Shown piece by piece: positions 3,014-19,912 of a DNA stretch of 23,048 nucleotides (positions are counted from its first letter, which is position 1; each line of letters begins with the position of its first letter). The DNA comes from Sanchytrium tribonematis (taxonomy: Eukaryota; Sanchytriomycota; Sanchytriomycetes; Sanchytriales; Sanchytriaceae): NCBI GenBank assembly GCA_018985235.1, contig JADGIG010000078.1, positions 1 through 23,048 of the forward strand. Reading direction: 5' to 3'. Below the pieces are notes generated by a model. It saw nothing but the letters and a program-made list of their open reading frames with translations, searched no databases and was not told where the DNA came from. Position numbers and translations under genes: made by a program.

Positions 3014-4052
3014 ATGGACATTTTAAAATTGAAATTAGAAAGATTGGGATGTAACACGATTTTGGAGCAAAATAAACTCTCCAAATTAGAAAAAAACTTG
3101 TTCGATCAATCCGGTAAACCTCAGGCGATGCAATATTTTATAGTCTTAGTGAAATGGCTATTTCAATTAAATCAAATACAGCCGAAATGGAATTCCGAGA
3201 CCGAGCAGAATAAAATATTGGATGAGATATCTAGTATTTTTAAATCAATGAAAATCAGTGTGCCTTCAGCATCACTCAAACTAGGAAGCGGACCAGAGAT
3301 TGCAACCGCATTGAACGAATTATGCAACAAGGTTTTACCAGTAAATGGGAAAGTTGTATACAAAAATGAAAGTGTCCTTGGGAATGCGACTCAAAGGCAA
3401 CTGGAATACGAATTTATCGACGAGCAAATTACGCAGAAAAATCATGCTGAATCAAAAACAGACATATTTACTCCTTTGAATCTTGAATTTCAGAATTATG
3501 TGGTTCCTGAAATTTCAGTGTGGAATAGGGAAGTTGAGTCTCTCGACTTTTCAGAGCTCGTACCACATAACAACACAGATTGGAGAGTTCACTGGGAGCA
3601 AATCAATGGACATATACAATATATTTCTCAAAATCTGAACGGGCTAGAGGGACCTTTACTTCAAATGGTAAAATCAAATTCCGATATCTTGGAGAAAATC
3701 TTGGCGAGAGAAAAGCATTTAAATGAGGCATTCTCATCATTGGTATTCCCAACTCATTTAGATTTCGGAATATAGGCAAGTTTACAATCAGTTTCAATCA
3801 AATAATCTAGAGAAGACAAAAGAGCAGGAAAACATAAAACAAATGACCCTTCAATTATCTGAGACTTCTGGTGAATTGGATAAAATAATTAAACAGATGG
3901 ATGAATATGGTTCAAAAATAACAGATGCATCACCACTGACGGATATTAAGAATGCGATATCTGAGTTAAAAAAAGAGCTTCTACAAACTGACATCATCAT
4001 TAATGTATACAGGCAAGGCCATCTTCAAAAGACAATGGAGGTTTCTAAATAA
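3014..4052 (+). CDS. IFT57: Intraflagellar transport protein 57 (IFT-B subunit)
   Basis: Join 3014-3742 and 3762-4052 around a 19-nt intron gives 339 residues. Start: the first in-frame ATG at 3014; the frame extends upstream only through non-ATG codons. Seen: an N-terminal calponin-homology-like region (about 1-115) with a W-L segment followed by S-L-K-L-G-S-G, which matches the S-K-L-K-S-G-Y-G block of IFT57. A W-R-V-H-W motif comes next, then a C-terminal coiled coil. Splicing restores L-I-S-E-Y-R-Q, the counterpart of the family's L-V-x-E-Y-R block, and D-A-S-P-L-x-D-I-K matches the family's D-G-A-P-L-V-K-I-K. Known: IFT57 pairs with IFT20 in IFT-B2 and works in anterograde cargo transport within cilia. 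It is shorter than the human protein (about 429), mainly in the acidic linker. It implies a flagellated stage. Confidence 0.85.
3743..3761 (+). other. 19-nt spliceosomal intron in IFT57
   Basis: The sequence is gtattcccaactcatttag, phase 0, between codons TTG and ATT. Removing it joins two otherwise broken coiled-coil frames and creates the family-conserved E-Y-R block. The alternative acceptor TATAG at 3771-3775 would lead to an early stop in the resulting frame, which favours the acceptor at 3761. Confidence 0.85.
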
Positions 4053-4097
4053 AATACAGAATATTTGGGTTTGAAACAACGTTTTTGTTTCGTAACA

Positions 4098-4301
4098 ATG
4101 GACATTGAGCTGTTATTAAACGCCCTTTTCGTTTACCCAAACCTTAATTCGAACCAAACAGATTACAGCGCTAAGCACAAAAAATTTAGGAACGACTTTT
4201 TAAATCCCAAAGTCGATCCTTTTTTACACCACCAAGATTTCCAAGTCAATAATTTGCCAGATACTGATATGATAGTAGACGAGGAAATAGTTGAAGAATA
4301 G
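4098..4301 (+). CDS. Small acidic-tailed protein of unknown function (67 residues)
   Basis: The ATG at 4098 opens a frame that begins M-D-I-E-L-L-L-N-A-L-F and ends in an acidic tail (M-I-V-D-E-E-I-V-E-E). It sits 45 nt after the IFT57 stop. AATAAA at 4303-4308 begins just past its TAG stop, as for its neighbours, which supports a real transcript. There is no transmembrane segment or recognisable motif, and I do not recognise the family. The N-terminal leucine-rich helix plus short basic stretch (K-H-K-K-F-R) could be a subunit-docking segment of a larger complex, but that is a guess. It could also be a terminal exon of a gene that I did not resolve. Confidence 0.5.
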   Translation: MDIELLLNALFVYPNLNSNQTDYSAKHKKFRNDFLNPKVDPFLHHQDFQVNNLPDTDMIVDEEIVEE

Positions 4302-4430
4302 TAATAAATTTATAATTTAGTTTATCGACACTTATCATCTATTTTTGCACCAAGCAAAAGTCTTTAATCATTCCTTTGGTTTTCATTGGTCCGTGTGAAA
4401 TCATAAGATCCTTTCAAACCAAACTAGACC

Positions 4431-4952
4431 ATGATTGAGCTGCCAAGTTGGTTGAATCCTGAAGACTACGAAGGAAAGAAAATGACTCATGAGGAAGCCA
4501 TGTCATTGGCTGTACAACTGAGCATGAAAAATATAGAAAACAATAGTGGCGGTCCATTTGGTGCCGTCATTTTATCACCTGTTGACAACACCGTAATAAG
4601 CGTGGGCGTAAATTTAGTAGTAACTCTCGGTTCTTCCATGTACCATGCTGAAATTGTCGCCATCTTACGAGCTCAGAAAAATCGACAATTATTTCGCATT
4701 AATGAAGGTATACTATTCACTTCTTCTCAACCTTGCTGTATGTGCTATGGCAGCTTGTTTTGGAGTGGAATTGATCAGCTTGTCATCGGAGCACGTAAAG
4801 AAGATGTTGAAACCTACACCGAATTTAAGGAAGGTCCCTTGCCGAGCGATTGGCAGTTGGAGTTGAAAGTCAGAGATATCAAGGTAAAAACGGACTTTTT
4901 AAGAGATGATGCTATTGAGGCGTTAAAACAGTACAGTAACGTCCACTATTAA
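4431..4952 (+). CDS. Nucleoside deaminase, zinc-dependent CDA/TadA superfamily
   Basis: 173 residues from the ATG at 4431, without introns. The zinc site is complete: H72-A-E74 supplies one ligand and the proton-shuttle glutamate, and P101-C102-C103-M-C105 supplies the two cysteine ligands. An N-terminal G-G-P-F-G-A block precedes them. The C-terminal half (A-R-K-E-D-V-E, E-G-P-L-P-S-D-W, a D-x-L-R-D-D-A helix) resembles a bacterial nucleoside/guanine-deaminase-like group rather than the eukaryotic tRNA adenosine deaminase ADAT2. Known: the superfamily hydrolytically deaminates a base amino group. The substrate (guanine, cytosine or adenine derivative) cannot be read from sequence alone. AATAAA follows the stop directly at 4953-4958. 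A CCAAT-type box (ATTGG, 4385-4389) lies about 45 nt upstream. Horizontal origin is possible. Confidence 0.85.
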   Translation: MIELPSWLNPEDYEGKKMTHEEAMSLAVQLSMKNIENNSGGPFGAVILSPVDNTVISVGVNLVVTLGSSMYHAEIVAILRAQKNRQLFRINEGILFTSSQPCCMCYGSLFWSGIDQLVIGARKEDVETYTEFKEGPLPSDWQLELKVRDIKVKTDFLRDDAIEALKQYSNVHY

Positions 4953-4975
4953 AATAAAACTTATGGGAATTCTCC

Positions 4976-5365
4976 ATGTTCCAATTCAAGCGTTTCCATA
5001 CACATGATATTCTACAATTGTCTCACAAGCTTCTACCAAGACATAATCCAAAGGTAATGCATAATGACTCCGAAATAGACCTTAAATATTTCATGGAAAA
5101 AATTAGATCTGGGTCAGTCATAAAAATTAATTTTGATAGTGAGGATTTCACCGGAGTGATGATTCAAAAGAGGAAGAAAGGCATAGATTCGTCTATCCAT
5201 CTTCGTCAGCCCAATTACCACAGTACAGCTGTAGAACGAATGTTTAAAGTTCATAGCCCTAAGCTGTCATTAATTACTGTTATAAAGGAAGCGAAATGGG
5301 CCAGAAGAGCTCGATTGTACTACTTACGGGACCATCCAACCAAAGCAAAATCTGGATATAAATAA
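4976..5365 (+). CDS. MRPL19: Mitochondrial large-subunit ribosomal protein bL19m
   Basis: 129 residues from the ATG at 4976, only 23 nt after the preceding stop. The core matches bL19: G-S-V-I-K-I-N, F-T-G-V-M-I-Q-K-R-K-K-G-I, V-E-R-M-F-K-V-H-S-P and the C-terminal K-W-A-R-R-A-R-L-Y-Y-L-R-D. The first 25 or so residues are basic with few acidic residues, as expected of a mitochondrial presequence, and exceed the bacterial protein at this end. Known: bL19 lies at the subunit interface of the bacterial-type ribosome. The AATAAA hexamer at 5361-5366 contains the stop codon. The stop of the convergent Timeless gene is 10 nt further on. Confidence 0.9.
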   Translation: MFQFKRFHTHDILQLSHKLLPRHNPKVMHNDSEIDLKYFMEKIRSGSVIKINFDSEDFTGVMIQKRKKGIDSSIHLRQPNYHSTAVERMFKVHSPKLSLITVIKEAKWARRARLYYLRDHPTKAKSGYK

Positions 5366-5375
5366 AAATATACAT

Positions 5376-7471
5376 TTACTCTTCGATACATAGAGATGGG
5401 GATTCTAAATTGATGTGCCACAGTTGTTGAGTGAAATCTAAAAATATTTTACCAGCTTCGTGTTTTTCCTCCTCGGAAGAATCTTCTAATTCAATCTGTT
5501 CAGATACCCTTACATTTGGCGTGGCCCCAAAATCATTTCCGTTCTTTGTATATCCCCTTATTCTATAAACATCATTTTTAGTCTTGGAGAAATAAAATTC
5601 GATTATATGTTTTGGATCTTTCTTTAAGTGCTCCTTGATCTTTTTACCAATTTTGTCAGTGAGCTGCACTAATGATTTGCGTTCTCCATCACTTACATCC
5701 AATGGTTTTTCCAAAGTACTGATCAAAATATGCAAATATTGCATCTTAAACATATAAATAAACATATCCTGCTTAAATAGTATTCTATGCAGCATTTTTA
5801 TGATACTGTGAAGTAAAACTGAATTCAGATCCATCTGTAATGCAGTCATGTAGCACTCTACAATGGACTCAGTCGCAAAATACTAAATGAACATGTAAAT
5901 ACATTTTCAAAGGTTGACACATCGACGGATCTTTCTGTTCCTTTCTGCTTCCTTTTCATGAATATAAAATTATTAATTCCACTATAAAATTCCAACGCTC
6001 TAAAGATCGAGTCGTTCAATAATATGCAACTTTTTATCAGTCCGTATCCGTAATTCCTTGCATCACGAGTCATTTGGGTCATGATTGTAAATAGTCTCTC
6101 ATCGTAAAACAACTTCGCTTGAATGGAAGTTGCTAAATCAAGAATTTCGTCATCGGAACATAATTCTTTCAAACTAGCAGAGTAATAGGCTAAACAGTCC
6201 GCCACTTTGGTAAATTCAGAATATTTTTCTTTCTCATCTGCTGCAACTTGAAAACATGACATCAAATATCTAATAAATCTAGTGGAATATAAATGGCTTA
6301 CCAAATTCCAATTCAGCTCAATGTCCGTCCCATCAATATTATATATAATCCGGTTCTTTTTGAAGCAATAAATCATGAATTCCAAAACTTGCTTGACCAA
6401 AATCATATAATAAAGTCTCGTTTCATCGCTTGTGTGTTGTTTATGGCTTTCCAAATCTTCCTGCAAAGTACTAAATAAAGGATTTGCGCCAGTATATATA
6501 AACTTTACAAGGATTTCTCGAATTAGAGCATGACCCTTTGGTGACAAGTAGTTTCTAGATTGATTTAATCCAACTGTAAATTTCTTCTTTTTACGATACT
6601 TGACTAGTTTAGCTTTGTTAAGATCCTCATAATCAGGATTTAAATTTCCAGAGACAGTTTTTATCACTTCGTCATCTACACCAATCAATTGTATGCGCGA
6701 TTTATATCTCATGGCAGAGGTTAACTTTTCTTTAGGATTAAGAATTTGCTCCTTCCTCATCAACTGTGCAAATTCGGAAGATCTCTCAAATAAACTTGGT
6801 ACATCCAAAATGAGGCTATGCATGATATCCAATAGAATCGAGTTCCATGATTTAAACTCCATCTTTCCTAATTGAGAACATACTTTTAAAATTAAATTAA
6901 ATAAATTACAATTTTTAAAGCAATTAATTAACTGCTCGTGATAAGATTCGATTTGAAAATCAGATTTTATATTTGTCGGGTCTTCTATTCTCAATAAATT
7001 TCTGAGAAATAACATACACATTCTTAATAATTGCTGGTCTTTGTCATCACGTTGTCTAAAATCTCGAGAAAATAGTTTTACAATCAGCTGCTTGACCAAA
7101 TTCATGTGATATTCATTACTAAATAGCTTTTTGTGATAAATCTGGATTTCTTCGTGATGTGTTGGCCAAGTTAAAGGTACAAGCAATTCTAGAACACTTG
7201 TTGCAATTTTTTTGTTATTCAAATGATCTTGCAAAATTGGTAACAAATCTGTTTCCGTGAACTTCTGATCAATCAGCCATTTTAAAGTTGGCCTTTGGTT
7301 TGTCAGTTCTTCTTCTTTCAATATATTTTTGATGTCTTGCAAAACTTCATTGCAACTATCACCCAGTACGTATGTAGGTTCATTAAATTGATTTAGTTCA
7401 ATACTACCCAGTGCATTAATCAAACTGACAAGTCTTCCAAGGTCGAAAAGAATATCATCGTCACTCTCCAT
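5376..7471 (-). CDS. TOF1: Timeless/Tof1/Swi1 replication-fork protection protein, short form
   Basis: Join 7471-5903 and 5882-5376 (minus strand) around a 20-nt intron; 691 residues. The N-terminal Timeless block is clear: Y-V-L-G-D-S-C-N-E-V-L-Q-D-I, then T-D-L-L-P-I-L and L-L-V-P-L-T-W-P. Past residue 470 come N-Y-G-Y-G-L-I-K-S and N-F-I-F-M-K-R-K, then an acidic E-D-S-S-E-E-E-K-H-E segment near the end. Known: with Tipin/Csm3, Tof1 travels with the replisome, couples helicase to polymerase, supports S-phase checkpoint signalling and enforces programmed fork pausing. Fungal and animal members usually have about 970-1240 residues, so the C-terminal region is largely missing here. No nearby frame extends it. 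The start is the first ATG after the divergent promoter. Confidence 0.88.
5883..5902 (-). other. 20-nt spliceosomal intron in Timeless/Tof1
   Basis: On the coding strand the intron reads gtatttacatgttcatttag, phase 0, after F-E-N and before Y-F-A-T-E-S. Retention gives a stop 14 codons later. Excision joins the 523-codon first frame to the 169-codon second frame without a break. Confidence 0.85.
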
Positions 7472-7577
7472 GTTGCAAAAAGTTGAACATTAAATGCTCT
7501 ACCAAAATCCTTTCGCGAGATTTACTGCGCATTCTTTTAATGCCAAAAGGATTTATTTGAAGTCCTGAACAGAGCTC

Positions 7578-7610
7578 ATTGGATAAACTTATGATTGGTC
7601 ACCCTCCAAT
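7578..7610. promoter_or_regulatory. Cluster of three CCAAT boxes in a divergent promoter
   Basis: ATTGG occurs at 7578-7582 and 7594-7598 (the latter in a TGATTGGTCA context, a good NF-Y site), and CCAAT at 7606-7610. They sit in the 185-nt gap between the Timeless start (7471) and the small gene at 7657. Known: NF-Y/HAP binds CCAAT 50-100 bp upstream of transcription starts in fungi and animals. Use here is inferred. Confidence 0.5.
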
Positions 7611-7656
7611 TGTATTTTTTGTTATATATTTGACGTTTGCAGGGCAAGCTTAACGC

Positions 7657-7875
7657 ATGTACCACAGAGATACAGATGGCGAAAAATTATCTCTAATTGC
7701 ACATCAATTAGTATCCGAAATCAGGAAAAGCAACCCAGAACAATTTTACTTTAGGTCTTCCGGGATCCCCCACATAAAGACTGTTCTTTTATTTGAATTA
7801 CAAAAACTAAAGAATCCCATGCTTATGCGCAATAAAAGACTCACGCGATCTAATTTTCGAAATAAATTTTATTAA
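7657..7875 (+). CDS. Small basic protein of unknown function (72 residues)
   Basis: The ATG at 7657 is preceded in frame by a TAA at 7651-7653, so this is the longest start unless an upstream exon exists. The protein has an N-terminal amphipathic stretch (G-E-K-L-S-L-I-A-H-Q-L-V-S-E-I), a central F-Y-F-R-S-S-G-I-P segment and an Arg/Lys-rich tail. I do not recognise the family. Support for a real gene: it fills the gap behind a CCAAT-rich divergent promoter, it has AATAAA at 7861-7866, and its composition is unlike that of a random frame. Its stop codon overlaps the stop of the convergent zinc-finger gene. Confidence 0.5.
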   Translation: MYHRDTDGEKLSLIAHQLVSEIRKSNPEQFYFRSSGIPHIKTVLLFELQKLKNPMLMRNKRLTRSNFRNKFY

Positions 7876-8612
7876 CAAATTTCAATCAATTCTTCAGAGT
7901 CATCTACGACTCCATACCATTGCATTAAAAGATCCTCTCCACCTAGCTTGCTTTTCGAGCCATGTGTGTCATCTATATGTTCCGTCAAGTTGGATAACTT
8001 TTTATATGATTGCATGCAAAATGGACACTTCACTTGAAGATTTCCTTTATGCAGTTTTTGGTGTCTTATTAATGCAGATTTAAATCCAAAGTTCTTGTCG
8101 CAGACACTGCAGTGATGCTTTTTAATTTGAAAATGAATTGCTTCGATATGAGAATTTAAATTGTAATTGGAAACAAACGTTTTTTCACACAAATCATATG
8201 GACAAGAAAATATTCTTTTCTTCACATGCTTGGCTTCATGAATGATTTGCTCCGTAGGATGTTCTGATTGTATATGATCTTCCATTTGTTCAATTGGTAT
8301 CTTAATAAAACAAATACCGCAAACAACTAATTTCGATTTTTTTTCCTTTTTTACAACCATCTTTTTGGATTTATCATGACGCTTCATGTGCTGATTCAAA
8401 TTAGATTTATAAGTAAACTCTTTCCCGCAGTGACATTTAAATTCCTTGGGCTCGTGAACTTTATTGTGATCATTTAGATGAGCCAATCTTTTAAAAGTTT
8501 TTTTACAAATTTGACATTCATGCAGCCTCTCTTCGGAATGAACTAGCAAGTGTTCGTTGTAATGTCCTAGATGATCAAAAACTTTTTGACACTCTTTACA
8601 TTGTCGAGTCAT
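7872..8612 (-). CDS. C2H2 zinc-finger protein, possibly TFIIIA
   Basis: 246 residues from the ATG at 8612. About seven zinc fingers are visible in order: C-x2-C at residues about 4-7, a second C-x2-C finger, a short C-x-C finger, a weak fourth with C-x2-C and H-x4-H, then a C-x4-C finger, then two C-x2-C fingers. Linkers are not the canonical T-G-E-K-P, and a Lys-rich segment lies between fingers 3 and 4. The fifth and sixth (N-Y-N-L-N-S-H-I then F-G-F-K-S-A-L-I-R-H) resemble the last two fingers of TFIIIA, which binds the 5S rRNA gene internal promoter and 5S RNA. TFIIIA normally has nine fingers, so this is tentative; a sequence-specific transcription factor of another family is the alternative. 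The start lies 26 nt from the divergent aminopeptidase start. Confidence 0.7.
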   Translation of the reverse strand: MTRQCKECQKVFDHLGHYNEHLLVHSEERLHECQICKKTFKRLAHLNDHNKVHEPKEFKCHCGKEFTYKSNLNQHMKRHDKSKKMVVKKEKKSKLVVCGICFIKIPIEQMEDHIQSEHPTEQIIHEAKHVKKRIFSCPYDLCEKTFVSNYNLNSHIEAIHFQIKKHHCSVCDKNFGFKSALIRHQKLHKGNLQVKCPFCMQSYKKLSNLTEHIDDTHGSKSKLGGEDLLMQWYGVVDDSEELIEIC

Positions 8613-8638
8613 CAAATGATCGTTTCTCCTTTGTTACA

Positions 8639-11294
8639 ATGACACGAAAGGTTTTGCCGTCTTATCTCAAGCCTTCTCATTATAACTTGACAATATATCC
8701 AGACATCTACAAGCATAAATTCTATGGGGAAGTGGTAATCAAAATAGTCTCTAGTGGTTCTATCCATCTGAACGCTAAAGAATTAGAAATTTTGACAGTC
8801 AAGGTCAACGGTCAATCAAAAACATATACAAAAGACACTGAAAATGAAGCTATAATAATCGAAGGAGAGTATTTTGATGAAAATGAAGTGGTGATTAGCT
8901 ATACAGGAATTCACAATGATAAAATGAATGGCTTTTATCGAAGCAGTGTAGAGCTAGAGAACAGCAAGACGCATATGGTTGTTACTCAATTTGAGCCGAC
9001 TGATTGCAGAAAATGCATGCCATGTGTAGATGAACCCAACAAAAAGGCCACATTCCAGGTTTCAATTATTTGTGAAAATCATTTAACAGCCCTTTCAAAT
9101 ACAAGTGTGAAAGATATTTCAGATTTTGCAGTTCCAACAGATGTCAAAAGTCTTATTCATATCACAGAAAAACCATACAAAAAAGTTACTTTTGAAAAAA
9201 CTCCAATTATGAGCACTTATATTTTGGCGATGGCAACGGGAGAATTCGATTACATCGAGAGTTCTTCTGTTCCAGGGAATGGTTTGGATGCAATTCCAGT
9301 CCGAGCTTATGGTCCAAAAAATACAAAAGTGGGAAACATCAAGGAAGCAAAGTTTGCTTTAGATGTGACATGTCGCGCATTACCAGAGTTTGCTGAAAGA
9401 TTCGATATGCCGTATCCAATTGAAAAACTAGATCTTCTTGCTGTGCCTGATTTTAGTGCTGGAGCCATGGAAAATTTCGGTTTAATTACATTCAGAACTA
9501 TTTTGATGTATATTACCGAGTCTTCTTCCTTACAACACCAGCAACAGTGCGCATATGTTAATTGTCATGAACTGGCACATCAATGGTTTGGGAATAGTGT
9601 GACGTTCCAATGGTGGCAGGAATTATGGCTAAATGAAGGATTCGCCACAAAAGCTGGTTGGTATATCACAGACATTTTATTTCCGGAGTGGAAAATTTGG
9701 GACAAATTCATTGCAAATGACTATTTAAACGGCATGAATTTGGATTCTTTATTGACCACTCATCCTATTGATGTTCCTGTGGATGATCCTAACGATATCG
9801 GACAAATATTTGATGCTATTTCTTATAGCAAGGGTGCTACTGTCATCAAGATGCTGTACGACAATTACGGTGATAAATTTATAAAGGGCGTAGCCAGCTA
9901 CTTGAAGGAGTTTCGTTGGAAAAATGCTACTAGTGAGGATTTATGGAGAAATGTCAGTGCTTCGTGCGAATTTGATATTTCCAATTTGATGAGAAAATGG
10001 ACGACTATTGCTGGATATCCATTTATTGTAGTCGATAAGAATCTTAAATTAAGACAGCAACGTTTTTTAATGGAAGGATCTCAAGAAGAAACATGGCCAA
10101 TTCCATTAGGTCTCCAATGTTTTGAGGTCAGAAAAGATGGTATATACGCAAGTGAGATAAAGCCTTTACAATATCAGCTTATGGAAAAAGTAGAACATCA
10201 ATTGCAATTATTTCCTTGTACCAAACTCGTTGCAAAAATTCAGTTGTCCGAAGAATTTAGTTGCTTTAAGCTAAATATTAAACAGTCCACAATGGTTCGA
10301 GTTCAATATCATGACATTACGCCCTTGTTAAAATTAGTGGAAGTCCAGCTAAAAAACAAGCTGGAAATTTTAAGTGCTGGTGACAGGCTTGGAATACTTA
10401 ACGATATGTATAATCTTGCGCAATCAGGAAAGTCAAGTGTGCTACAGTACCTCAACGCTTTGAAATATTATAAGGACGAAGAGGACTATTATGTTTTGAA
10501 TGACCTAGCTCAATCGTTACAGACTATACTTGAAATTTTTACCGATTCTACTGTGACAGCAAAGGTGAACTCGCTACGAAGAGACATTTTTACGTCTATT
10601 GCTTTCGATTTAGGCTGGGACTATAATGATGATAATCATTTGAAACGAACTTTGGCAATATCCCAAGCAGGATTGGCGAATGAAAAAAGGTAATTTTGTA
10701 TAATATAGAATTGTTGCTGAAGCGGAGAAGAGGTTTCTTGAATTTATGGACGGAAAAGACTCAATTAATCCAAATTTGATTAGCAAAGTGTTTCAGATTG
10801 TTCTTGTTAATTCTGCAACGATTGAAAATTATAACAAGGTCAAGAATTATTACCTAAACTGCACACTAATGGACAGAAAATTAGGAGCTTTAGGCACTTT
10901 AGGGCATATCAAAAACAAAGCCTTGATTCAGGATTGCTTATCAATGCTTTTAAGCGAACAAGTGAGAGCTCAAGATGTCATTTACTTACTACAAGGACTT
11001 GGAAATAATGCAGAAGCAAGAAAAATGACACTTGACTTTGTGAAGGAAAATTGGGAAAAGCTGACCTTATTATTAGAAGGCTCCTTAAATTTACTAGGAA
11101 GCTGCATTTCACGATCTTGCTGCTATTTTAGCGATGACGCAATTGCAGATGACATTCAAAACTGCTTTTCTGCCAAAAAGGAATGGAAGCAAATCAGTAG
11201 ATCTGTCGAGCAAACAGTCGAGAAAATTAGAAATCGAGCTAAATGGAACAAACGAGATTCAAACGATGTTTTAAATTGGGCTACTTCTAAATAA
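8639..11294 (+). CDS. M1-family zinc aminopeptidase (puromycin-sensitive/Aap1-Ape2 type)
   Basis: Join 8639-10689 and 10709-11294 around a 19-nt intron; 878 residues, the usual length for the soluble members. The exopeptidase motif G275-A-M-E-N-F-G and the zinc site H310-E-L-A-H314 with the third ligand E333 (L-W-L-N-E-G-F-A-T) are intact, with catalytic E311. A Tyr in the A-I-S-Y-S-K-G segment fits the transition-state tyrosine. The C-terminal helical ERAP1-like domain carries N-D-M-Y-N-L-A and the spliced A-E-K-R-F-L-E-F. There is no signal peptide or anchor, so the enzyme is probably cytosolic and trims N-terminal residues from peptides released by proteolysis. AATAAA at 11290-11295 contains the stop. 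The first methionine is 26 nt from the divergent gene, so the promoter must reach into coding sequence. Confidence 0.93.
10690..10708 (+). other. 19-nt spliceosomal intron in the aminopeptidase gene
   Basis: The intron reads gtaattttgtataatatag, phase 2, splitting an AGA arginine codon. Unspliced RNA meets TAA at once within the donor (AG|GTAA). Excision rejoins the M1 C-terminal domain at A-N-E-K-R-I-V-A-E-A-E. Confidence 0.88.
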
Positions 11295-11406
11295 ATGAAG
11301 ACGCGTTAGCCTAAATTAATTACTAAAGTTTTTCATAGGATATAGGGAAAACCTTTTTTTGGTTGACTTATTTTCAGGTTAGATTTTTTGGTACTGAGAT
11401 TTGATT

Positions 11407-11415
11407 AGCCAATCA
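11407..11415 (+). promoter_or_regulatory. CCAAT box
   Basis: AGCCAATCA is a full NF-Y-type match about 80 nt upstream of the ATG at 11495. It lies in the 200-nt gap 11295-11494, which holds nothing else that I can recognise. Confidence 0.5.
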
Positions 11416-11494
11416 CGTAGAATTGGCGTAATTCAATACAAGCGTGTACGCCTCTCAAACGCGGTCCTTTTAAAGATCACTTTGGACTTTTGAA

Positions 11495-11857: not shown

Positions 11858-11860
11858 GAT

Positions 11861-13369
11861 TTATTTAGATGTGCGAGTTGGCATGCGTTGCTTCATTTCA
11901 ACCATTCTTTTATAATCTTCTTCAAAATAAGGTATCGGGTGGTAAACGTAAAGTGTGGATATTATCAAAAGTCGATCTTTTTCGCTATCTTGTTCTTGAG
12001 TTATAAACATGTCCAAGATTTTTCCATCTTGGTCTTTACAGGTAAACACAGAAGGTGCGTTTGAATTAGCTTTGACACCAACAATAAACATGTCTTTGAC
12101 CCATGGTCTTCTCAGGCTTAATGCCACACCTACATTGTTTTTATGAAATATGACCGATTTTTTAAATTCCGAGTCATTTTCATCATCCGGAAGAAGCCAA
12201 AATGCAACCAACATGATGGATTTCTTTAAATCCTTGATGTGACTAAGGTAAGTGTTCATTTCCTGTACTGGAATAGTTTTTTGAAATTCAATATGTGGTG
12301 AGAAAACAGTTTCCATCACATTGTGAGTGATCCCATAAACTTGATAAGCATATCCTTTGAAAGTAGAAAATGGAAGGTGGATTGTGCCTTGCCATTTTTT
12401 TATTTCAATCGGAGCGTCAATGTTCATATCATCTTCTACATCTTCCTCGTCGTTAATTTCAAATTCCAAAGGCTCCTCTAATTTTATAGGTTTGTAATCA
12501 GTAAACTCGGGCACGTCGAATTCAGGGGTGCTGTATTCCATTGCATAATGATGAACCTCTTCTTCTCCTTTGCTCGTTTTGCGAGTGTAGCCTTCAACAA
12601 TGTTCAATCTTTCCTCGGCAGTATTAGCAATATCTTCTACTGTGGTTTCGTCTGATATCAGCCAAGACATAACAGTATCGTAGTCAGATTCCAGATAAGC
12701 CCTTGCGTGGTCCTTGTTCTCACGTAAATCTAATTTTAATTTTAAATAAACATTTTGACACTCAATTTCATCTCTGCAAGTATTTTTAAAAACGTTCATG
12801 AATCTTGTAAAGCCATCAAATTCAGCAAGTTTTGCGTAATAAATTCTGGATATATGTGAAACATTTTTTCGAATAGTTTGGGAAAGAATTTCTTTATCAC
12901 GATTTCGAAAAAAGTTGTTTAACGTTCGCTCAAAATTTGAGTCACTTAATAATTGCAAATCTTCCTCTTCTAAACTATTGAAAAAAAATTGTAAATTTTT
13001 CAAGCTCTTTTCCTTGAATGAATCAACGTAAGTTTCCTTAACAATTTCTAGGAGATTTTCATTCACTTTTTTTAACCTTTGCTCCAATGGAGTCAATTTT
13101 TTTGGTCCTAGAACAGTTTCAGCTTCTTTGAGTTCAATTGGCAGATTATGCTCTTTTTCACACAAGCACAAATTTTCTTTAAAAAGCTTGTTAATTAATT
13201 TTTTGCTTTCAATTTTTAAAATTTCTAGAGTAGATAATATTGGCGATTTTTTAATCTGAGTGGTTTTTTTAGGACGAGTTTGGATATCAGTTTTTAAATT
13301 TTCAGCATTGTCTTTTATTTCTTCCTTGTAAGATTCCATGACGAGCGCCTCATCGACTTTTGTATCCAT
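11861..13369 (-). CDS. SPOC-domain protein of the Bye1/PHF3/DIDO type
   Basis: 502 residues from the ATG at 13369. The C-terminal half has the features of the PHF3/DIDO SPOC domain: K-K-W-Q-G-T-I-H-L-P at its start, A-Y-Q-V-Y-G, F-S-P-H-I-E, Y-L-S-H-I-K-D-L-K-K, and V-K-D-M-F-I-V-G-V near the end. A segment near residues 115-150 (D-S-F-K-E-K-S-L-K-N-L-Q-F-F-F) could be a worn TFIIS-like central domain. An acidic linker (E-I-N-D-E-E-D-V-E-D-D) precedes SPOC. Known: SPOC in this family reads phosphorylated RNA polymerase II C-terminal repeats and tunes elongation. The PHD finger of Bye1 is not visible, so the architecture is reduced. The AATAAA at 11860-11865 (minus strand) covers the stop. Confidence 0.65.
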   Translation of the reverse strand: MDTKVDEALVMESYKEEIKDNAENLKTDIQTRPKKTTQIKKSPILSTLEILKIESKKLINKLFKENLCLCEKEHNLPIELKEAETVLGPKKLTPLEQRLKKVNENLLEIVKETYVDSFKEKSLKNLQFFFNSLEEEDLQLLSDSNFERTLNNFFRNRDKEILSQTIRKNVSHISRIYYAKLAEFDGFTRFMNVFKNTCRDEIECQNVYLKLKLDLRENKDHARAYLESDYDTVMSWLISDETTVEDIANTAEERLNIVEGYTRKTSKGEEEVHHYAMEYSTPEFDVPEFTDYKPIKLEEPLEFEINDEEDVEDDMNIDAPIEIKKWQGTIHLPFSTFKGYAYQVYGITHNVMETVFSPHIEFQKTIPVQEMNTYLSHIKDLKKSIMLVAFWLLPDDENDSEFKKSVIFHKNNVGVALSLRRPWVKDMFIVGVKANSNAPSVFTCKDQDGKILDMFITQEQDSEKDRLLIISTLYVYHPIPYFEEDYKRMVEMKQRMPTRTSK

Positions 13370-13506
13370 GTTTGAAAAGGGGATTCAATTTTCTTGTATT
13401 TGACAGAAGCATTTTAAAGATAATAATTGTGATATTAAAAGTAAAGCAGAACAAATTTTAAAATTTTAAAGTCCTATAAATTCTTGAAATATTTCATTTT
13501 TGATAC

Positions 13507-13941
13507 ATGTCACAAGTTCCTTTCTCAAATCCACAAAGCGAATTGAGCAACCCACAATCAGCAGACAGTAATATGCAAATTAACACCAACAATAATGCTG
13601 TTGTTGACTCTAAACAAAAGAATGAGCCAAGTGTTGCAGAAAATGATTTGCAAGTGATGCAAAATTCTTTTGTGACCTTACAGTCTCAAATCGACGACCT
13701 TGTTCAATACTGTAAGACAATCGAAGGTGAAAAGAAAGAATTAGTTGATAAATACAACGATTTAGTTGATGAATACAACAAGAATGTCAACTATACCCAA
13801 AAGCTGCATGAAATGCTCAAAAATTTCGAAGTCAACGATTTGGACAAGGTAATTAAAGACATGCAATCTATGATCAGCGAGGATGAACGTAAAAAGGTAG
13901 ATGAAGAGGTTAAAAATATCTTGGCTAAACTTGAGCAGTAA
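13507..13941 (+). CDS. Small coiled-coil protein of unknown function
   Basis: 144 residues from the ATG at 13507. Residues 1-45 are Asn/Gln/Ser-rich, with a repeated S-N-P-Q-S element (about positions 7-11 and 14-18), and are likely disordered. From about 48 to 144 the protein is highly charged with heptad-like spacing (I-D-D-L-V-Q-Y, L-V-D-K-Y-N-D-L-V-D-E-Y), consistent with one long coiled coil broken near 105-110. No membrane segment is seen. It could be a small subunit of a coiled-coil complex; I cannot name it. It precedes the SIM-containing gene by 66 nt in the same direction. Confidence 0.6.
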   Translation: MSQVPFSNPQSELSNPQSADSNMQINTNNNAVVDSKQKNEPSVAENDLQVMQNSFVTLQSQIDDLVQYCKTIEGEKKELVDKYNDLVDEYNKNVNYTQKLHEMLKNFEVNDLDKVIKDMQSMISEDERKKVDEEVKNILAKLEQ

Positions 13942-14007
13942 ATTATGTATTTTCCAAATTTGAATCGACCCATTTCCAAGGTATAAATAATTTTCCCGTG
14001 TGTATCA

Positions 14008-15639
14008 ATGTCAATTAGGCAAAATAACGTGATTGATTTAACAGGCATAAACACGGAAGATACAGCGCGTGTCAAATATGTAGATTTGACTTGCGAACAA
14101 CCTGACAAAAGACTTTTAGAACCAAATGATGAAGAGAACACTCTTTCAATACCCTGGAATGTTATGGACCTTACAAATTTATCTTCTGAAGAAGAATCTG
14201 ATATATTTTCTTCAAATATTATGGATGTTCATTTTGATAAGGAACATCCTAAGTATTCAAAACAAGCAAATGAAACAAAAACAATTGATAAAAAGCAACA
14301 ACCCGAATTTATGACAAGCATTACTGAATATAGCTCCAGGCGGTATAATTTACATTTGCAAAATGATTTTCACGATGTAATATTTCACGATAATAGTACA
14401 TCATATTACCAAAACGAATCTGAATTTGGCTCTCTCAATTCCTTCGCATCGGGTCCCGCGCTTGATGTTTTTGTTCAAAAGTTTCCAATAGATGAGACTT
14501 CTCATAATATTGAGGACCAGGACTCTAGTTTTGCGTTTAGAAACGTTGAATCGCAAGATATTGAATCTAAAAGCAAAGATTTACCAGCAGCTATATCTCA
14601 AGAAGATTCACCAACTAGTTCTTTTCAGAAAGAAAAGTATTTGAAGCCAACAATTATCCCTAATAGGAGCAGAATGTTAATATATGAGCATGATCCAGCA
14701 CAGAGGTTTCACGAATATAAATACTTTGACATTGTGTTCTACAGTTTTGGGAATTGCTATTCTCTTGCAGAGTCTCAAATTGAATTAGAAAATATAATAT
14801 ACTTAATATCTTATGTGGAAGACAAATTTATGTATAAAGTTTCATCCAAGCACAATGAGGCTGAGAATTTTACAAGATTATATGGCAATATAGCAATATT
14901 TCCTTTCCTTAAAATGGAAAAGACAGGTTTGTTTCGACTACTAGACAAATGGAGTTTTGAAAGTAGGGAATATGAATTTCTGTTGTCACCTTATACCCAT
15001 AGAACACCTCTTAAATTAGCGGATTCCTACGAGTGTCTTTCTGCAAGAGAGTTTTTAAATTTGTATTTTGAAAATAAAGACCTGGAATATGAATGTCGTA
15101 ATTGCGAGTGTAAGCTACATGGCCATGCCAGTATTGAGAAAACTGCCAAAATATTAGGTTTACATATTATAGAAAGCTGTCAATTAAGTGAGCTCTATCG
15201 ACCTACTTTTGTTGAAAAGATTTTGTTTGGATGCAGATTAAATTATGTGATGTTAGAATCCATAAGCGAATCTGATGAATCGCCTGACTTAATCAATAAT
15301 CCATCAGTCACCAGAAAGAGAAGGAATAAGCGATTAAACAAGTATAAATTTGAGTCTTTTCCCATTGATTTTTTATTGAAAAAGAGTGATGTTGATAAAT
15401 TATTTTGCAGTAATTCCCACTTCATGGAAATTCTTAAAATTCATAAATGTAAGTGTTTAAAAGGACTGGGCGGATACGATGGCTTCAGGGCGTTTCTTTT
15501 GTGCGGAAAAAAGGAAGACGGAATGGTGGAGTGCTTAGAAATATTAAAAAAATTGAACGAGATAACATTTATGGATTTGAAGGAAGAAATTCTTGACGAG
15601 CGAGGTATATATAATGCTGTGAATTTTCACTTAAAATAG
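14008..15639 (+). CDS. Protein with three SUMO-interacting motifs and a degenerate USP-like domain
   Basis: 543 residues from the ATG at 14008. Three SIM-like cores are seen: V8-I-D-L-T12, Y24-V-D-L-T28 and V52-M-D-L-T56, the last followed by S-S-E-E-E as in phospho-regulated SIMs. Residues 57-225 look disordered and Ser-rich. The C-terminal half follows the order of a ubiquitin-specific protease fold. F-G-N-C250-Y-S-L-A-E-S-Q sits where the Cys box belongs. Then L-F-R-L-L-D-K, a C363-x2-C366-x-C368 knuckle before a K-T-A-K-I-L-G-L strand, F451-P-I-D, and finally G488-G-Y-D-G-F, where the G-H-Y His box belongs. The histidine is replaced by glycine and one finger CxxC is absent, so it may be catalytically dead. 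Call by eye only; an unrelated SUMO-binding protein remains possible. Confidence 0.5.
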   Translation: MSIRQNNVIDLTGINTEDTARVKYVDLTCEQPDKRLLEPNDEENTLSIPWNVMDLTNLSSEEESDIFSSNIMDVHFDKEHPKYSKQANETKTIDKKQQPEFMTSITEYSSRRYNLHLQNDFHDVIFHDNSTSYYQNESEFGSLNSFASGPALDVFVQKFPIDETSHNIEDQDSSFAFRNVESQDIESKSKDLPAAISQEDSPTSSFQKEKYLKPTIIPNRSRMLIYEHDPAQRFHEYKYFDIVFYSFGNCYSLAESQIELENIIYLISYVEDKFMYKVSSKHNEAENFTRLYGNIAIFPFLKMEKTGLFRLLDKWSFESREYEFLLSPYTHRTPLKLADSYECLSAREFLNLYFENKDLEYECRNCECKLHGHASIEKTAKILGLHIIESCQLSELYRPTFVEKILFGCRLNYVMLESISESDESPDLINNPSVTRKRRNKRLNKYKFESFPIDFLLKKSDVDKLFCSNSHFMEILKIHKCKCLKGLGGYDGFRAFLLCGKKEDGMVECLEILKKLNEITFMDLKEEILDERGIYNAVNFHLK

Positions 15640-15662
15640 TTTACTTTTAGGTTATTAAATTT

Positions 15663-17267
15663 TTATTTTCCTAGATCTAGCGTACTTATAGAGTCTTTCC
15701 TGACATCTGTAACCTCATAAATACGCACAGATTGAGATTTTCCTTTAAGAATTTCTTCTTTATGAAACTTTACAGAAATTTCATTCTTTACCATTCGATA
15801 AACACTTTCAGTTATTAATATTTCGTTATCTTTTGCTTGATCACAAATTCGGGATCCCACATTAACTGTGTCACCAATAGAAGTCACCTCCACTCTTTCG
15901 GATCCACCAATAACTCCAAAAAATACGTTTCCTCTGTTTAACCCAATCCCAACAGAGATTTGATTCTTATTTTGCATGGACCTTTCTCGATTGAATTCTA
16001 TGACAGATTTTTTCATCTTGATTGCTGCGTTTATTGCTCTCAGTTCAGGAAGTGGGTCATCTTCAATCAAGCCAAAGCCGCACATGATACAATCGCCTAT
16101 AAATTTGTCAATCATTCCATTGAACTCGAAGGCTACTCTCACCATTCTTTCAAAAAAACCATTCAGAAGTTCAAATATTTCAGCAGGAGACATGGTTTCT
16201 GATAGTGTTGTAAATCCTCTGATATCTGCAAACAATATAGTACCCATTTTCAATTCTCCACCTCTATTGAATGGATTATTTTGATGAATCATCTGCTGGA
16301 CCATCTGTGGGGGCAAAAACCGATTTAGTTGCTCAGTAATCCTTACTTCTTTTTGCGACTCTTTGATAAACATTGAATTCTCGATTAAAACAGCAGTTTG
16401 ATTTACGATTGTACGTACTAAAGAAATGTCTTTCTCTGCAAAAGCCTTGATACGATTCTTTGAATCTAAGTGCAATATCCCTAAAATCTTACCATGAGCT
16501 ATCAAAGGAAGACACATTACAGATCTGATATTGGCTTTGGCAATGCTTTTCGCTTTCCCCAAATCTGGATCCATCGAGGTGTCTACAGCGATTAAACATT
16601 TCTTTGAATTAAAAACTCTAGATAAAATAGTGCTGCTCAAAATAATTTCTTCTCCTTCTTCCCCGTGGCCTTGCCTTATTTTCACATGAGATGCCCGAAG
16701 TTGATCTTCTCCTTCAATTTCTAATATAACTCCTCTATCCACTGGCAAAACATTAAACATCAAATCCAACATATTAACGTAATGTTTTTTAGTATTTGTG
16801 GTGAATGAAACTTTAGATAACTCATATGCCAGTCTTAATTTCTCATAATCCTGTTTCAAAGTTTCGATATCCGCATCTGGCTTTAGTTTTGCAAAATCTT
16901 CTTCCAATGGCTCAATTTCTGCGCTTATACGCTGTCCAGTGGTATCGACATTAATTTTAACCAACCTAACATTGTCAGTATGTACACCATGTGATGGTCT
17001 ACGATCGAAATACTGAAGAATTTTAGCACCTAATTGTATAATGTCTTTATCTTTGAGTATTGATTCTTGCTTCTTCTTCTCATTAACCCGGACGCCGTTG
17101 CTACTATTTAAATCCTCAATATAATAGCTCGAGCCTCTGATAAAAATTCTAGCGTGCTTTTGACTTATACTTGGATGATCAAGTGTAATTGCACATTCGG
17201 GGTGTCGTCCGAGAACAATCGTCTTAGTTATTACATATTCCTTTTTGTCAATTATTAGTTTGGGCAT
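15663..17267 (-). CDS. FHA-GAF-class III adenylate cyclase
   Basis: 534 residues from the ATG at 17267, without introns. FHA domain, about 1-90: G20-R21, S35-x2-H38 and S-S-N57-G58, the phosphothreonine-binding set. GAF domain, about 155-310. The cyclase domain starts near 340: metal aspartates D348 (L-F-A-D-I-R-G-F) and D392, ATP-selecting pair K388 and T462, transition-state residues N469 and R473. All key residues are present; the Lys/Thr pair is that of class IIIb adenylate rather than guanylate cyclases. There is no membrane segment, so the enzyme should be soluble and controlled by a GAF ligand and a phosphoprotein partner. The FHA-GAF-cyclase order is familiar from bacteria such as myxobacteria and differs from the leucine-rich-repeat cyclase of fungi. 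The AATAAA at 15662-15667 (minus strand) covers the stop. Confidence 0.92.
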   Translation of the reverse strand: MPKLIIDKKEYVITKTIVLGRHPECAITLDHPSISQKHARIFIRGSSYYIEDLNSSNGVRVNEKKKQESILKDKDIIQLGAKILQYFDRRPSHGVHTDNVRLVKINVDTTGQRISAEIEPLEEDFAKLKPDADIETLKQDYEKLRLAYELSKVSFTTNTKKHYVNMLDLMFNVLPVDRGVILEIEGEDQLRASHVKIRQGHGEEGEEIILSSTILSRVFNSKKCLIAVDTSMDPDLGKAKSIAKANIRSVMCLPLIAHGKILGILHLDSKNRIKAFAEKDISLVRTIVNQTAVLIENSMFIKESQKEVRITEQLNRFLPPQMVQQMIHQNNPFNRGGELKMGTILFADIRGFTTLSETMSPAEIFELLNGFFERMVRVAFEFNGMIDKFIGDCIMCGFGLIEDDPLPELRAINAAIKMKKSVIEFNRERSMQNKNQISVGIGLNRGNVFFGVIGGSERVEVTSIGDTVNVGSRICDQAKDNEILITESVYRMVKNEISVKFHKEEILKGKSQSVRIYEVTDVRKDSISTLDLGK

Positions 17268-17570
17268 TTTCTCAAGAATGACGGATATTGAGTTAAATGA
17301 AAAAAGCAGCCAATCAAATATGTATTTATATTACAGGTGAAGCCAAATCACCATAGGCTCCCCTAAAATGTCTCCTTTATAATTTGTCAAGTAGAAACGG
17401 TAATTTTTTAGCCCTTTCAAGTTTAGTAGTACAAAGAAAAACAATTCCCGGGTCCTTTTCAAATGATTTCTCATCCGTCTTTAAAATATTTACAACTCAT
17501 GCTTGGTTGGTTCCTCAGATTCAATGTAAACCCTTCGAAACAGATTATTGCATCGTCGAATCAGAAAGAG
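17268..17570. promoter_or_regulatory. Divergent intergenic region with a CCAAT box
   Basis: It holds the promoters of the cyclase (leftwards) and the membrane protein (rightwards). A CAGCCAATCA element at 17308-17317 lies about 45 nt upstream of the cyclase ATG. The right part contains an in-frame upstream ATG at 17463 that could extend the membrane protein by 36 residues. Nothing else is recognised. Confidence 0.45.
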
Positions 17571-18053
17571 ATGGCTGGTGAAAACTTTGAAGTTTTAAGT
17601 ATGGAAGAAGACAAAAATTCAGAAATTCCACGCATTACAATCAGAGTAAAAATTACATCAGTATTGTACTACAAATTTTGCAGCGTATTGAGTTTGGCAA
17701 TTATGAACCTGGTTTTTAGAAAGTGGGCACCAGGAATTTTACTCTTAGTCAACGGCATTGCAGGCTTAGGTGCAGTCCTCAGTAGACGCTCGAAGTTTGT
17801 CTTCTATGACATATTTTTATTTATTGCTGTGCAGATTGTACACATTGGTTTAATAATCAGCGAATTATTCAATCTTGATGACACTGCTGAGAATTCTCAC
17901 TTTCGAACTGACTACAATTTGTCGTATAATAAGACTAGGGATGCATACCTGGCAGTTTATGTGATTGATTTACTTATGAATTTATCTTTGACAGTATTTA
18001 TCTCTTGGTCTTTGTACGAGTATCGCACTTGGCTGAAAAGTCACAACAAGTAG
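17571..18053 (+). CDS. Four-pass integral membrane protein of unknown function
   Basis: 160 residues from the ATG at 17571, chosen because M-A-G-E-N-F begins a soluble acidic N-terminus and its context (GAGATGG) is good. An upstream in-frame ATG at 17463 would add 36 residues. Four hydrophobic segments are seen, at protein residues about 32-50 (Y-Y-K-F-C-S-V-L), 54-72 (W-A-P-G-I-L-L-L-V), 79-103 (F-L-F-I-A-V-Q-I) and 126-150 (L-A-V-Y-V-I-D-L-L). Both ends are likely cytosolic. The loop after segment 3 is acidic, with an N-L-S sequon. The small tetraspan layout resembles many uncharacterised fungal and protist membrane proteins; I cannot assign a family. The stop is 4 nt from the stop of the convergent acyl-CoA oxidase. 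Confidence 0.7.
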   Translation: MAGENFEVLSMEEDKNSEIPRITIRVKITSVLYYKFCSVLSLAIMNLVFRKWAPGILLLVNGIAGLGAVLSRRSKFVFYDIFLFIAVQIVHIGLIISELFNLDDTAENSHFRTDYNLSYNKTRDAYLAVYVIDLLMNLSLTVFISWSLYEYRTWLKSHNK

Positions 18054-18057
18054 TAAA

Positions 18058-19912
18058 TCACAATTTATTTGGTAATTTAATCAATTCTCCAAAATTATCC
18101 GCAATATTGTAACTCTCCCAGTCACCAGCAATTGGTGCTTTTATCATGTCTTTGTGGACACCAATGCTCTGACTAATTTTTAATGCTTGCGGGCTCAAAA
18201 GTTTGATATTTTTGGTGAACAAATCACTGAGCACGTCAATGTGATCTTTTGACAATCCTTGAGATACCATAAATGCAGCGTTTTTAATCAAAATTTCAGA
18301 AGCGTAAACCATAAATGATTGAGTCAAAATCCTTAATTAACAGTAATTACGCTTCCAATTGCTTATCACCACTGCTTTTGGCAACTTGGATTTCTTTAAC
18401 AGTACGTTCTGCGCATATTCTCTCACCATATGCTTTACTGAGTCCTTGAATTAAATCACTGCATTCTCTCATCCAAGTTTCAAATAATGAAGATTTCTTC
18501 AATCTAGCTTTCATGTCATTCTGTAATGAAATAATGTATCGGAATTCTTGATATTTTAGCAATTGTAGTAAGCCATTGATACTTACCAATTGATTTGAAG
18601 CAACAGGTTGAATATTGTCATAATTAACTCGCTTTTTGGCGATTGCATCTAGTAGCTCTTTACTAACTTTCTGCATCAAAACAGCATTATCGCCTTCTGC
18701 AGTCATTCCTGCGTGACTAAATCCGATAGACATTCCCAAGTAATTAGCGCTTAAGTATCCCTGACCACCACATCGTTCTCTGCAGACTGTTGCAGTGACT
18801 TGATGATGCCAAGTCATTAATGGCTTAATTACACAACAAAAGCGAATAAGCTCATCTTTAGCAATATTGTTTTGAGCCCAGCAATCCTTGATATAGTTAA
18901 ATCCAATATTTAAAACAATAAGTCTAGATAAGCAAGGAATTAGAGCATTTTGTTGAAGTTGATAAGTCAAAATAGGTGTATCCGATTTTCCAGTTGGACC
19001 AACAGTCAATCTAGAGTTTGAATATGCAAATGCAACATACAAGCTCATCTTTAATCCTCCCATACACATTGAAGCAATGCACAATCTTCCTGCTAAAAGT
19101 TGATCTGCGACTGCCAAAAAACGCGCCCTTTTGTTATTTCCTTTGATATTTGTAACGTATTTACCATTTTGAACATCTGCGTGCTTGTTCAGCAAATTAT
19201 CACGAGGAATCTTGACATGATCAAAAGCCAATTTCGCATTGTCCACACCATTACACTCTAGTTTATAGCCCATGTCATGAATAGTCACACCTGACAATAC
19301 ATTTAAATTTGAATCTCTAATAGGAACTAAAAATGCGTGGATGCCTTCGTGTTTTTGATTTACAAATAATTGTGCAAACACAATAGCGACATGCGCATGC
19401 ATTGCACCATTCGTGATCCAGTATTTCTGAGCCAATGGTGTAGGGGTGTGTATAATAAATTGCCCACCATTTTCGTCGTTTTGAAAATGTGCTGTTGTTT
19501 GCATTTCAACAGCATTATTTCCAAATCCTAACTCAGTCAATCCAAAACATCCAACAGTTTTCATAGAATCAATTTCAGAGATTACTTTTTGGTGTCTCTG
19601 GGTTGATAATTGCTGCATGGTTCCTCCAAACAAATTCAATTGTACGGTCATCTTAGTTGCTGTGCTTCCATCGACTGTACCAACTAATTCATGAACTGTC
19701 AATATATTCAGCGGGTCTTTTAAAAAGTCGTAAACTGATACATAATGAGACATGATAGCTTTCAATCTATCATATGACAATTCCCTGTGTTTTTTTAACG
19801 GAATGTTAAATTGCGGTGTGAATAGAGGAGTGCTCAAAAATTTTCTTAATTTTGCTCTGTTTTCATGATGATCGTGGTCTAGAAGATACTCTAATTTTGG
19901 AAACGGAATCAT
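18058..19912 (-). CDS. ACOX: Peroxisomal acyl-CoA oxidase
   Basis: Join 19912-18351 and 18331-18058 (minus strand) around a 19-nt intron; 611 residues. Seen: the [13 protein letters not shown] segment of the acyl-CoA dehydrogenase/oxidase FAD-binding middle domain, [18 protein letters not shown], and M-T-A-E406-G-D-N-A-V-L-M-Q-K, where E406 is the likely alpha-proton-abstracting base. The C-terminus ends in N-K-L, a PTS1-like tripeptide, though weaker than S-K-L. Known: it oxidises acyl-CoA to trans-2-enoyl-CoA with FAD and passes electrons to oxygen, giving hydrogen peroxide, the first step of peroxisomal beta-oxidation. The stop is TGA, the only TGA seen ending a gene here, which shows that TGA is a real stop in this genome. 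Confidence 0.92.
18332..18350 (-). other. 19-nt spliceosomal intron in the acyl-CoA oxidase gene
   Basis: On the coding strand the intron reads gtaattactgttaattaag, phase 2, splitting a GCG alanine codon. Unspliced RNA reads GCG-TAA, an immediate stop. Excision restores Q-L-E-A-I-L-T-Q-S-F and the C-terminal oxidase domain ending in the PTS1-like tripeptide. Confidence 0.85.

Follow-up and report, generated by a model that had tools for sequence, protein, structure and literature searches.

Introns of 19 to 20 nucleotides, probably spliceosomal, in a compact sanchytrid genome

Near-constant ultrashort introns are already known from unrelated lineages, namely nucleomorphs, heterotrich ciliates, and mikrocytids. 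In the mikrocytids Mikrocytos mackini and Paramikrocytos canceri, 217 of 224 introns are reported to be 16 bp long and 7 to be 17 bp (PMC10245619). The nucleomorph of Bigelowiella natans is described as having 865 introns of 18–21 nucleotides (nt) in 373 kb (PMC6461891), and the introns of the ciliate Stentor coeruleus are given as 15–16 nt, which would yield a lariat with a 10–11-nt loop and a 5-nt tail (PMC9505925). The microsporidian Encephalitozoon cuniculi has 37 introns, ranked among the smallest yet surpassed by those of Paramecium and of chlorarachniophyte nucleomorphs (PMC3629993). Here we consider four segments of 19 or 20 nt that interrupt genes in a 23,048-nt contig of Sanchytrium tribonematis (JADGIG010000078.1 of assembly GCA_018985235.1, our contig C287; we call this whole stretch the window). 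As far as DNA can show, they are spliceosomal introns of a nuclear genome. They would be among the shortest introns known and so a probe of the minimum size that a spliceosome can remove, in a case from Holomycota (to which the yeasts belong) where the branch site is recognizable and the 5-nt tail is fixed. A sequence-only reading of the window had named nucleomorphs and some ciliates as the lineages with such introns; both belong on that list, from which the mikrocytids were missing.

The segments and the genes that they interrupt are as follows, with a fifth candidate that came from the motif scan described below.

3014..4052, plus strand: IFT57 gene, taken from the first in-frame ATG through the stop; exon 1 runs to 3742 and exon 2 starts at 3762; Pfam IFT57.
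3743..3761, plus strand: IFT57 intron GTATTCCCAACTCATTTAG, 19 nt, GT-AG, putative branch A at −6.
5376..7471, minus strand: two-exon Timeless gene, taken from the first in-frame ATG through the stop; Pfam TIMELESS at 125.6 bits on exon 1.
5883..5902, minus strand: Timeless intron GTATTTACATGTTCATTTAG, 20 nt, GT-AG.
8639..11294, plus strand: two-exon M1 aminopeptidase gene, taken from the ATG chosen for the search through the stop; ERAP1_C.
10690..10708, plus strand: M1 aminopeptidase intron GTAATTTTGTATAATATAG, 19 nt; the database protein P0001 stops there.
18058..19912, minus strand: two-exon acyl-CoA oxidase gene, taken from the first in-frame ATG through the stop; ACOX_C_alpha1 at 83.6 bits.
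18332..18350, minus strand: acyl-CoA oxidase intron GTAATTACTGTTAATTAAG, 19 nt, GT-AG.
4301..4320, plus strand: fifth candidate GTAATAAATTTATAATTTAG, spanning the stop of a short open reading frame; motif scan only, probably chance.

The four segments have exactly the positions and lengths (19, 20, 19, and 19 nt) first claimed for them. All four begin with GTA[AT]T, and three end in TAG and one in AAG, again as claimed. Each excision restores a single frame, in the standard code, and homologs align over all four junctions, which bears out the statement that excision joins two frames of one recognizable family. For IFT57, the Pfam score rises from 67.9 bits to 132.1 bits upon splicing, with the match covering the junction, and for ERAP1_C in the aminopeptidase it rises from 82.1 to 214.3 bits. 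(The scores before splicing are for exon 1 alone.) The acyl-CoA oxidase domain PF01756 is not listed for exon 1 (E up to 0.001) but scores 37.3 bits in the spliced protein, where the match (446–589) runs over the junction at 520.7. The spliced C-terminal part of Timeless aligns to PDB entry 6xwx across the junction, without a gap there, and an alignment by eye of the aminopeptidase with two relatives (P0002 and P0003) has no insertion at the junction.

We also scanned about 0.3 Mb of the genome sequence (6,336,753 bases in 311 contigs). Besides the window, the sample comprised 250 kb fetched by place and loci that other searches had brought up; it was scanned at 290,910 and then at 306,583 bases. 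Forced jumps of reading phase were listed with a three-periodic coding model that had been trained on the sample's open frames. Genes are tightly packed: a selection of open frames 120 codons or longer (with at most 20% overlap) adds up to 247 kb in the 291-kb sample. In the 306,583 bases, 25 frame-breaking matches to GTA...TNAYNNAG were 19 nt (20 of them) or 20 nt (5) long, versus 14 in all at the 17 other lengths between 13 and 40 nt that are not multiples of three (0.8 each; Poisson P about 3e-21). The intron class is thus found in the sampled genome beyond the window too. About 1.6 of these 25 introns are expected by chance, and six control motifs with altered ends or spacing gave just 1–2 matches at 19 and 20 nt combined. 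As 18 of the 25 fall in the 250 kb that was fetched by place, we extrapolate to roughly 450 introns in 6.3 Mb. When no motif was required, GT-AG phase jumps at 19 nt numbered 37, versus 19.3 expected (P 2e-4). The GT-AG excess at 19–20 nt falls in the motif class: there were 52 candidates, of which 19 had the motif, and the other 33 compare with about 30 expected.

For 13 of the 25 introns, homology extends over the junction: those in the four window genes and in the genes for NAD kinase, ETF-QO, a Snf1-like kinase, NPL4, OST3, ornithine decarboxylase, RPB1, SF3B1, and SF1. In ETF-QO, the junction falls within the CxxCxxC of the 4Fe-4S domain. RPB1, SF3B1, and SF1 align at high scores and are ungapped at the joint after exact excision; the SF1 gene carries its own 19-nt intron (L035:1900-1918). 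NOT3 (C11:50853) was considered as a further case and set aside, as its Pfam match begins downstream of the junction.

Could the segments instead be assembly or amplification errors, or signs of decayed genes, with chance indels breaking the frames and coincidental GT...AG ends? The names of the contigs hint that amplified single cells may have been the source of the assembly, and several genes are indeed broken in frame. However, indel errors would not yield inserts of 19–20 nt with GTA and YTNAYNNAG ends, and they would not leave homologous proteins ungapped at the joint once exactly the segment is removed. The length peak and the altered-motif controls also argue against an origin in error, as does the presence among the affected genes of RPB1, SF3B1, and SF1, all of them presumably essential and with high-scoring alignments. 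We consider this explanation to be very improbable.

Another possibility is a mixed population, in which longer introns with other signals exist elsewhere in the genome and our scan saw only those that combine intact frames with the motif. The scan does require coding sequence on both sides and GTA/TNAY, so that introns in untranslated regions, and in-frame introns whose length is a multiple of three, would be invisible to it, and only about 0.3 of 6.3 Mb was covered. In the 290-kb sample, GT-AG phase jumps show small excesses at 49 nt (39 versus 23.4 expected) and at 50 nt (24 versus 12.8 expected). But the 49- and 50-nt candidates had no common consensus on inspection, and their excess is probably due to chance, though it is unexplained. 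More broadly, a motif-free search of 8–150 nt found no consensus for longer introns outside 19–20 nt (lengths of 8–79 nt were tabulated, and candidates of 16–22, 25, 49, and 50 nt were inspected singly), and there was no enrichment of donors (GTRWG or GTA) or of TAG at 25–150 nt. In-frame matches to the motif are also at the background level, with 4 at 18 nt and 3 at 21 nt versus 4, 7, and 5 at 15, 24, and 27 nt. A mixed population seems unlikely to us, if less so than error.

The anatomy of the 25 introns is simple. The donor is GTA, followed mostly by T at +5 (15/25) and +6 (18/25); this GTAWTT donor lacks the G at +5 that pairs with U1. At the other end is an acceptor block with a pyrimidine at −9 (23/25), then T at −8, A at −6, and a pyrimidine at −5 (all by selection), T-rich positions at −4 and −3, and AG. 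The T at −8, A at −6, and pyrimidine at −5 also occur in all four window introns, which were picked without any rule about the branch site. The putative branch A falls 6 nt from the end of the intron, at position 14 in those of 19 nt and at position 15 in those of 20 nt, so the excised intron would be a lariat with a 14–15-nt loop and a 5-nt tail. The introns are 78% A+T, and phases 0, 1, and 2 occur 11, 5, and 9 times. Because neither 19 nor 20 is a multiple of three, a retained intron always shifts the frame. How a branch point and a 3′ splice site could fit within 19 nt had been raised as a question, and the anatomy gives part of an answer: the two are fused into one block, YTNAY-NN-AG, because of which there is no room between them for a polypyrimidine tract.

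The genome also has much of the machinery that such introns would need. U2 RNA (115.9 bits) and U6 RNA (61.8 bits) are both above their Rfam cutoffs, and the U2 recognition sequence GUAGUA and the U6 ACAGAGA are intact. A U1 RNA, starting AUACUUACCU, carries an intact recognition sequence, ACUUACCU. On this evidence, recognition of the donor and of the branch site can be canonical. Among core proteins, we found Prp8 (697.6 bits), SF3B1 (346), SF1 (143), and U2AF35 (230). The inspection of U2, U6, and SF1/U2AF homologs that had been proposed earlier thus finds U2, U6, SF1, and the small subunit of U2AF; the large subunit, U2AF65, was not detected. As a side observation, the U2 RNA (L022:1501-1695) reads AUCAAGUUGUAGUA. 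U2 RNA usually has one U fewer before GUAGUA than this copy does.

With GT-AG ends, a branch consensus that is able to pair with U2, and core spliceosome proteins, the segments have several of the features expected of U2-type introns. They could in principle be removed without a spliceosome, by elimination from DNA (as with the internal eliminated sequences of ciliates), by RNA splicing of the Ire1 or tRNA type, or by translational bypassing. Their very short size might favor such a route, and the action of a spliceosome on these RNAs is inferred, not observed. But the GT-AG ends, the complementarity of the branch consensus to U2, and the markers of the major spliceosome in the genome all argue against it. 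Internal eliminated sequences of ciliates are bounded by TA, and the junctions of Ire1 introns lie in stem-loops. We find such removal scarcely credible.

A second question is whose introns these are. The earlier judgment that neither a nucleomorph nor a ciliate fits easily holds, given the standard code, the IFT gene, and the nuclear genome. A nucleomorph is ruled out by 6.34 Mb of genome sequence, IFT57, the low density of introns, and the strong branch motif, and introns of a heterotrich ciliate or a mikrocytid are ruled out by the length of 19–20 nt and by nearest named proteins that are fungal and aphelid.

We conclude that the segments are very probably U2-type spliceosomal introns whose length has contracted to a fixed minimum, 19 nt or less often 20 nt, in the compact, intron-poor nuclear genome of a member of Holomycota. 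Several points weigh against this conclusion. Splicing itself is deduced here from DNA. Twelve of the 25 junctions, that in NOT3 among them, are supported only by frame and motif, with the motif being the criterion of selection. The scans disagree in part: of the 19 introns with the motif in the stricter scan, 3 (L013:-:4857, L019:-:3070, and 4301-4320 of the window) are missing from the 25 of the looser scan. (The last of these passed a 90-base scan, its downstream score being weak at 0.4, and is absent from the list of a 60-base scan.) Introns of 18 or 21 nt can be told from coding sequence only by an internal stop, and one 18-nt candidate has one. The U1 match is below the Rfam gathering score (43.7 versus 69.5). 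Finally, U4 and U5 RNAs were not found in a search of the genome. If splicing works, then their non-detection reflects a failure of search or assembly, which weakens the other non-detections as well.

Those other non-detections concern U2AF65, Slu7, and Prp18. A search with TIGR01642 for U2AF65 gave 25 matches, none of them above the cutoff, which is not proof of absence. We inspected four loci that hold 5 of these matches and that we take to be RBM39-like (C121), Mrd1/RBM19-like (C310, two matches), PABPN1-like (C69), and Mei2-like (C40). Against PDB, C121 matches RRM fragments of RBM39 at 51.7 and 49 bits, and its top match is a poly(A)-binding protein (113.8 bits). The genome search gave no candidate for Slu7 and a single weak match for Prp18 (16.4 bits); neither result is proof of absence. 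(The control genomes for the Slu7 and U5 searches were prokaryotic and had no match.) We rejected the weak Prp18 match, whose locus is presumably the C-terminal region of Sec31. That Sec31-like gene (L040, minus strand) itself contains a 19-nt intron.

Two of the proteins that were found bear on this as well. SF3B1 of this genome (L017, C16), like P0242, P0243, and P0244, is about 900 residues long and has no match to PF08920 above the cutoff, while that domain scores 154.7 bits in SF3B1 of a chytrid (Quaeritorhiza). In this group, the N-terminus of SF3B1 is shorter by about 300 residues, the PF08920 region among them, and only two SRWD motifs are left. Such motifs bind U2AF-homology domains. 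Within its open frame, the part of SF1 that is N-terminal of the KH domain contains no tryptophan, and thus the RW motif would be missing, if that open frame gives the extent of the protein. In human SF1, the RW motif binds U2AF65. The short SF3B1 and the tryptophan-free N-terminus of SF1 lean in the same direction as these non-detections.

On our reading of these features, splicing would proceed as follows. U1 and then U6 would recognize GUAWUU. SF1 and then U2 (through GUAGUA) would recognize YTNAY, with the A bulged, and branching would give the 14–15-nt loop and the 5-nt tail. As the branch site and the 3′ splice site form one block, the binding of U2 would also position the AG. Because the AG lies at a constant short distance past the branch, it could enter the active site without a polypyrimidine tract and without scanning for a distant AG, so that U2AF65, Slu7, and Prp18 would probably be little needed. 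In yeast, Slu7 and Prp18 are reported to matter when the distance from branch to AG is at least 12 nt (Brys and Schwer, 1996; Zhang and Schwer, 1997; both as cited in PMC11651659). A fixed minimal 3′ end may go hand in hand with the loss of functions of the second step and of U2AF65. That these losses are real here is possible but, on balance, doubtful. We propose only tentatively, then, that this lineage runs a "fixed-ruler" spliceosome, in partial parallel to the non-detection of Slu7 and Prp18 in Stentor. If true, it would be a natural deletion experiment on the choice of 3′ splice sites in a relative of the laboratory yeasts. Both how near to each other the donor, branch, and acceptor can be and whether Slu7, Prp18, and U2AF65 are dispensable at a minimal distance from branch to AG are testable.

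Among known ultrashort introns, those of Stentor are similar in having one length plus a +1 class, a fixed branch A, a 5-nt tail, and canonical U1, U2, and U6, and Slu7 and Prp18 are not detected in either organism (in Stentor, Cdc40 is also reported as undetected). In contrast, the account of Stentor gives a weak branch consensus, reports U2AF2, and implies a 10–11-nt loop (PMC9505925), whereas the loop here would be 14–15 nt and U2AF65 was not detected. Mikrocytid introns are likewise near-uniform, ultrashort, and strongly conserved, with hundreds per genome rather than many thousands, but they are 16–17 nt long and belong to Rhizaria with a spliceosome of 17–19 identified proteins (PMC10245619), while ours are 19–20 nt long and from an opisthokont. 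The introns of chlorarachniophyte nucleomorphs match ours in length range, and the U1, U2, and U6 recognition sequences are canonical in both. However, nucleomorph introns are described as having no obvious 5′ or branch motif and as numbering 865 in 373 kb (PMC6461891), unlike the strong branch block and the 18 introns per 250 kb found here.

Among intron-poor fungi and protists, Yarrowia, Trichomonas, and Giardia are reported to have a strict branch motif at a fixed spacing beside the AG and no polypyrimidine tract (Irimia and Roy, 2008, PMC2483917). On our reading of how that paper counts, the spacing of 2 nt between motif and AG is the same here as in Yarrowia. What differs from all three, as they are described there, is the combination of few, short, and constrained introns in this genome. 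E. cuniculi is closer in that it also belongs to Holomycota and has a compact genome with short GT-AG introns and strict donor and branch motifs, but it has far fewer introns (37), and, judging from their ranking in PMC3629993, they are longer than ours. In the titles and abstract openings of the open-license papers listed for sanchytrids, aphelids, Amoeboaphelidium, Rozellomycota, and Holomycota, we found no report of a 19–20-nt intron class in Fungi or Holomycota. The main text of the sanchytrid genome paper (PMC8371127) has the word "intron" once, in the title of a reference, and the word is absent from the main texts of the genome papers for Aphelidium, a rozellid, and Paramicrosporidium.

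The introns also affect database proteins. Three proteins of this genome (P0001, the aminopeptidase; P0121, RPB1; and P0241, SF3B1) end at introns, as would happen if the contigs were translated as intronless; in P0121, the last six residues come from reading on past the donor into the intron. The EukProt names of P0121 and P0241 point to NODE_114_length_18474, which has the length of contig C16. Truncation may affect the proteome at every such intron, and because three database proteins stop at introns, inferences about gene presence or absence that were drawn from it may be off. In two relatives, the site is uninterrupted: in P0002 (aminopeptidase, 58% identical) by comparison by eye, and in P0243 (SF3B1, 71% identical) by alignment. 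The names of P0002 and P0243 suggest that they derive from genomic contigs read without splicing. These uninterrupted sites imply that introns were gained or lost within the group, with the direction undecided.

As to the wider relationships, sanchytrid genomes are reported to be 10.5 or 11.2 Mb with 34.6–36.3% GC, and sanchytrids to be sister to Blastocladiomycota and to have lost several, but not all, IFT-B proteins (PMC8371127). We therefore rejected the notion that IFT57 speaks against a sanchytrid. The G+C content of the 250 kb fetched here, 35.15%, is similar to that of the sanchytrid genomes, and so are the naming of the contigs and the Transdecoder-style labels. Among the matches listed, the nearest to the aminopeptidase are two relatives and then Amoeboaphelidium, and the nearest to RPB1 are one sequence and then fungi. 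We built protein trees for these two from 32 and 29 rows, respectively, chosen from 120 listed matches each. In both trees, our sequence has a long stem and no firm placement. In the aminopeptidase tree, it falls outside a 20-row clade that holds Blastocladiomycota and near Amoeboaphelidium, again on a long stem, which speaks against a sister relationship to Blastocladiomycota. In the RPB1 tree, which included no Blastocladiomycota, it pairs with one other sequence only.

The gene content of the window is eukaryotic: besides the four genes with introns, it includes genes for a cytidine-deaminase-type enzyme, a ribosomal L19 family protein, C2H2 zinc fingers, and an FHA-GAF-nucleotidyl cyclase. 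The last of these genes, at 15663-17330 on the minus strand, is eukaryotic, and the cyclase that it encodes is of class III. This order of domains would be expected in bacteria, and the gene is possibly a transfer or an old acquisition.

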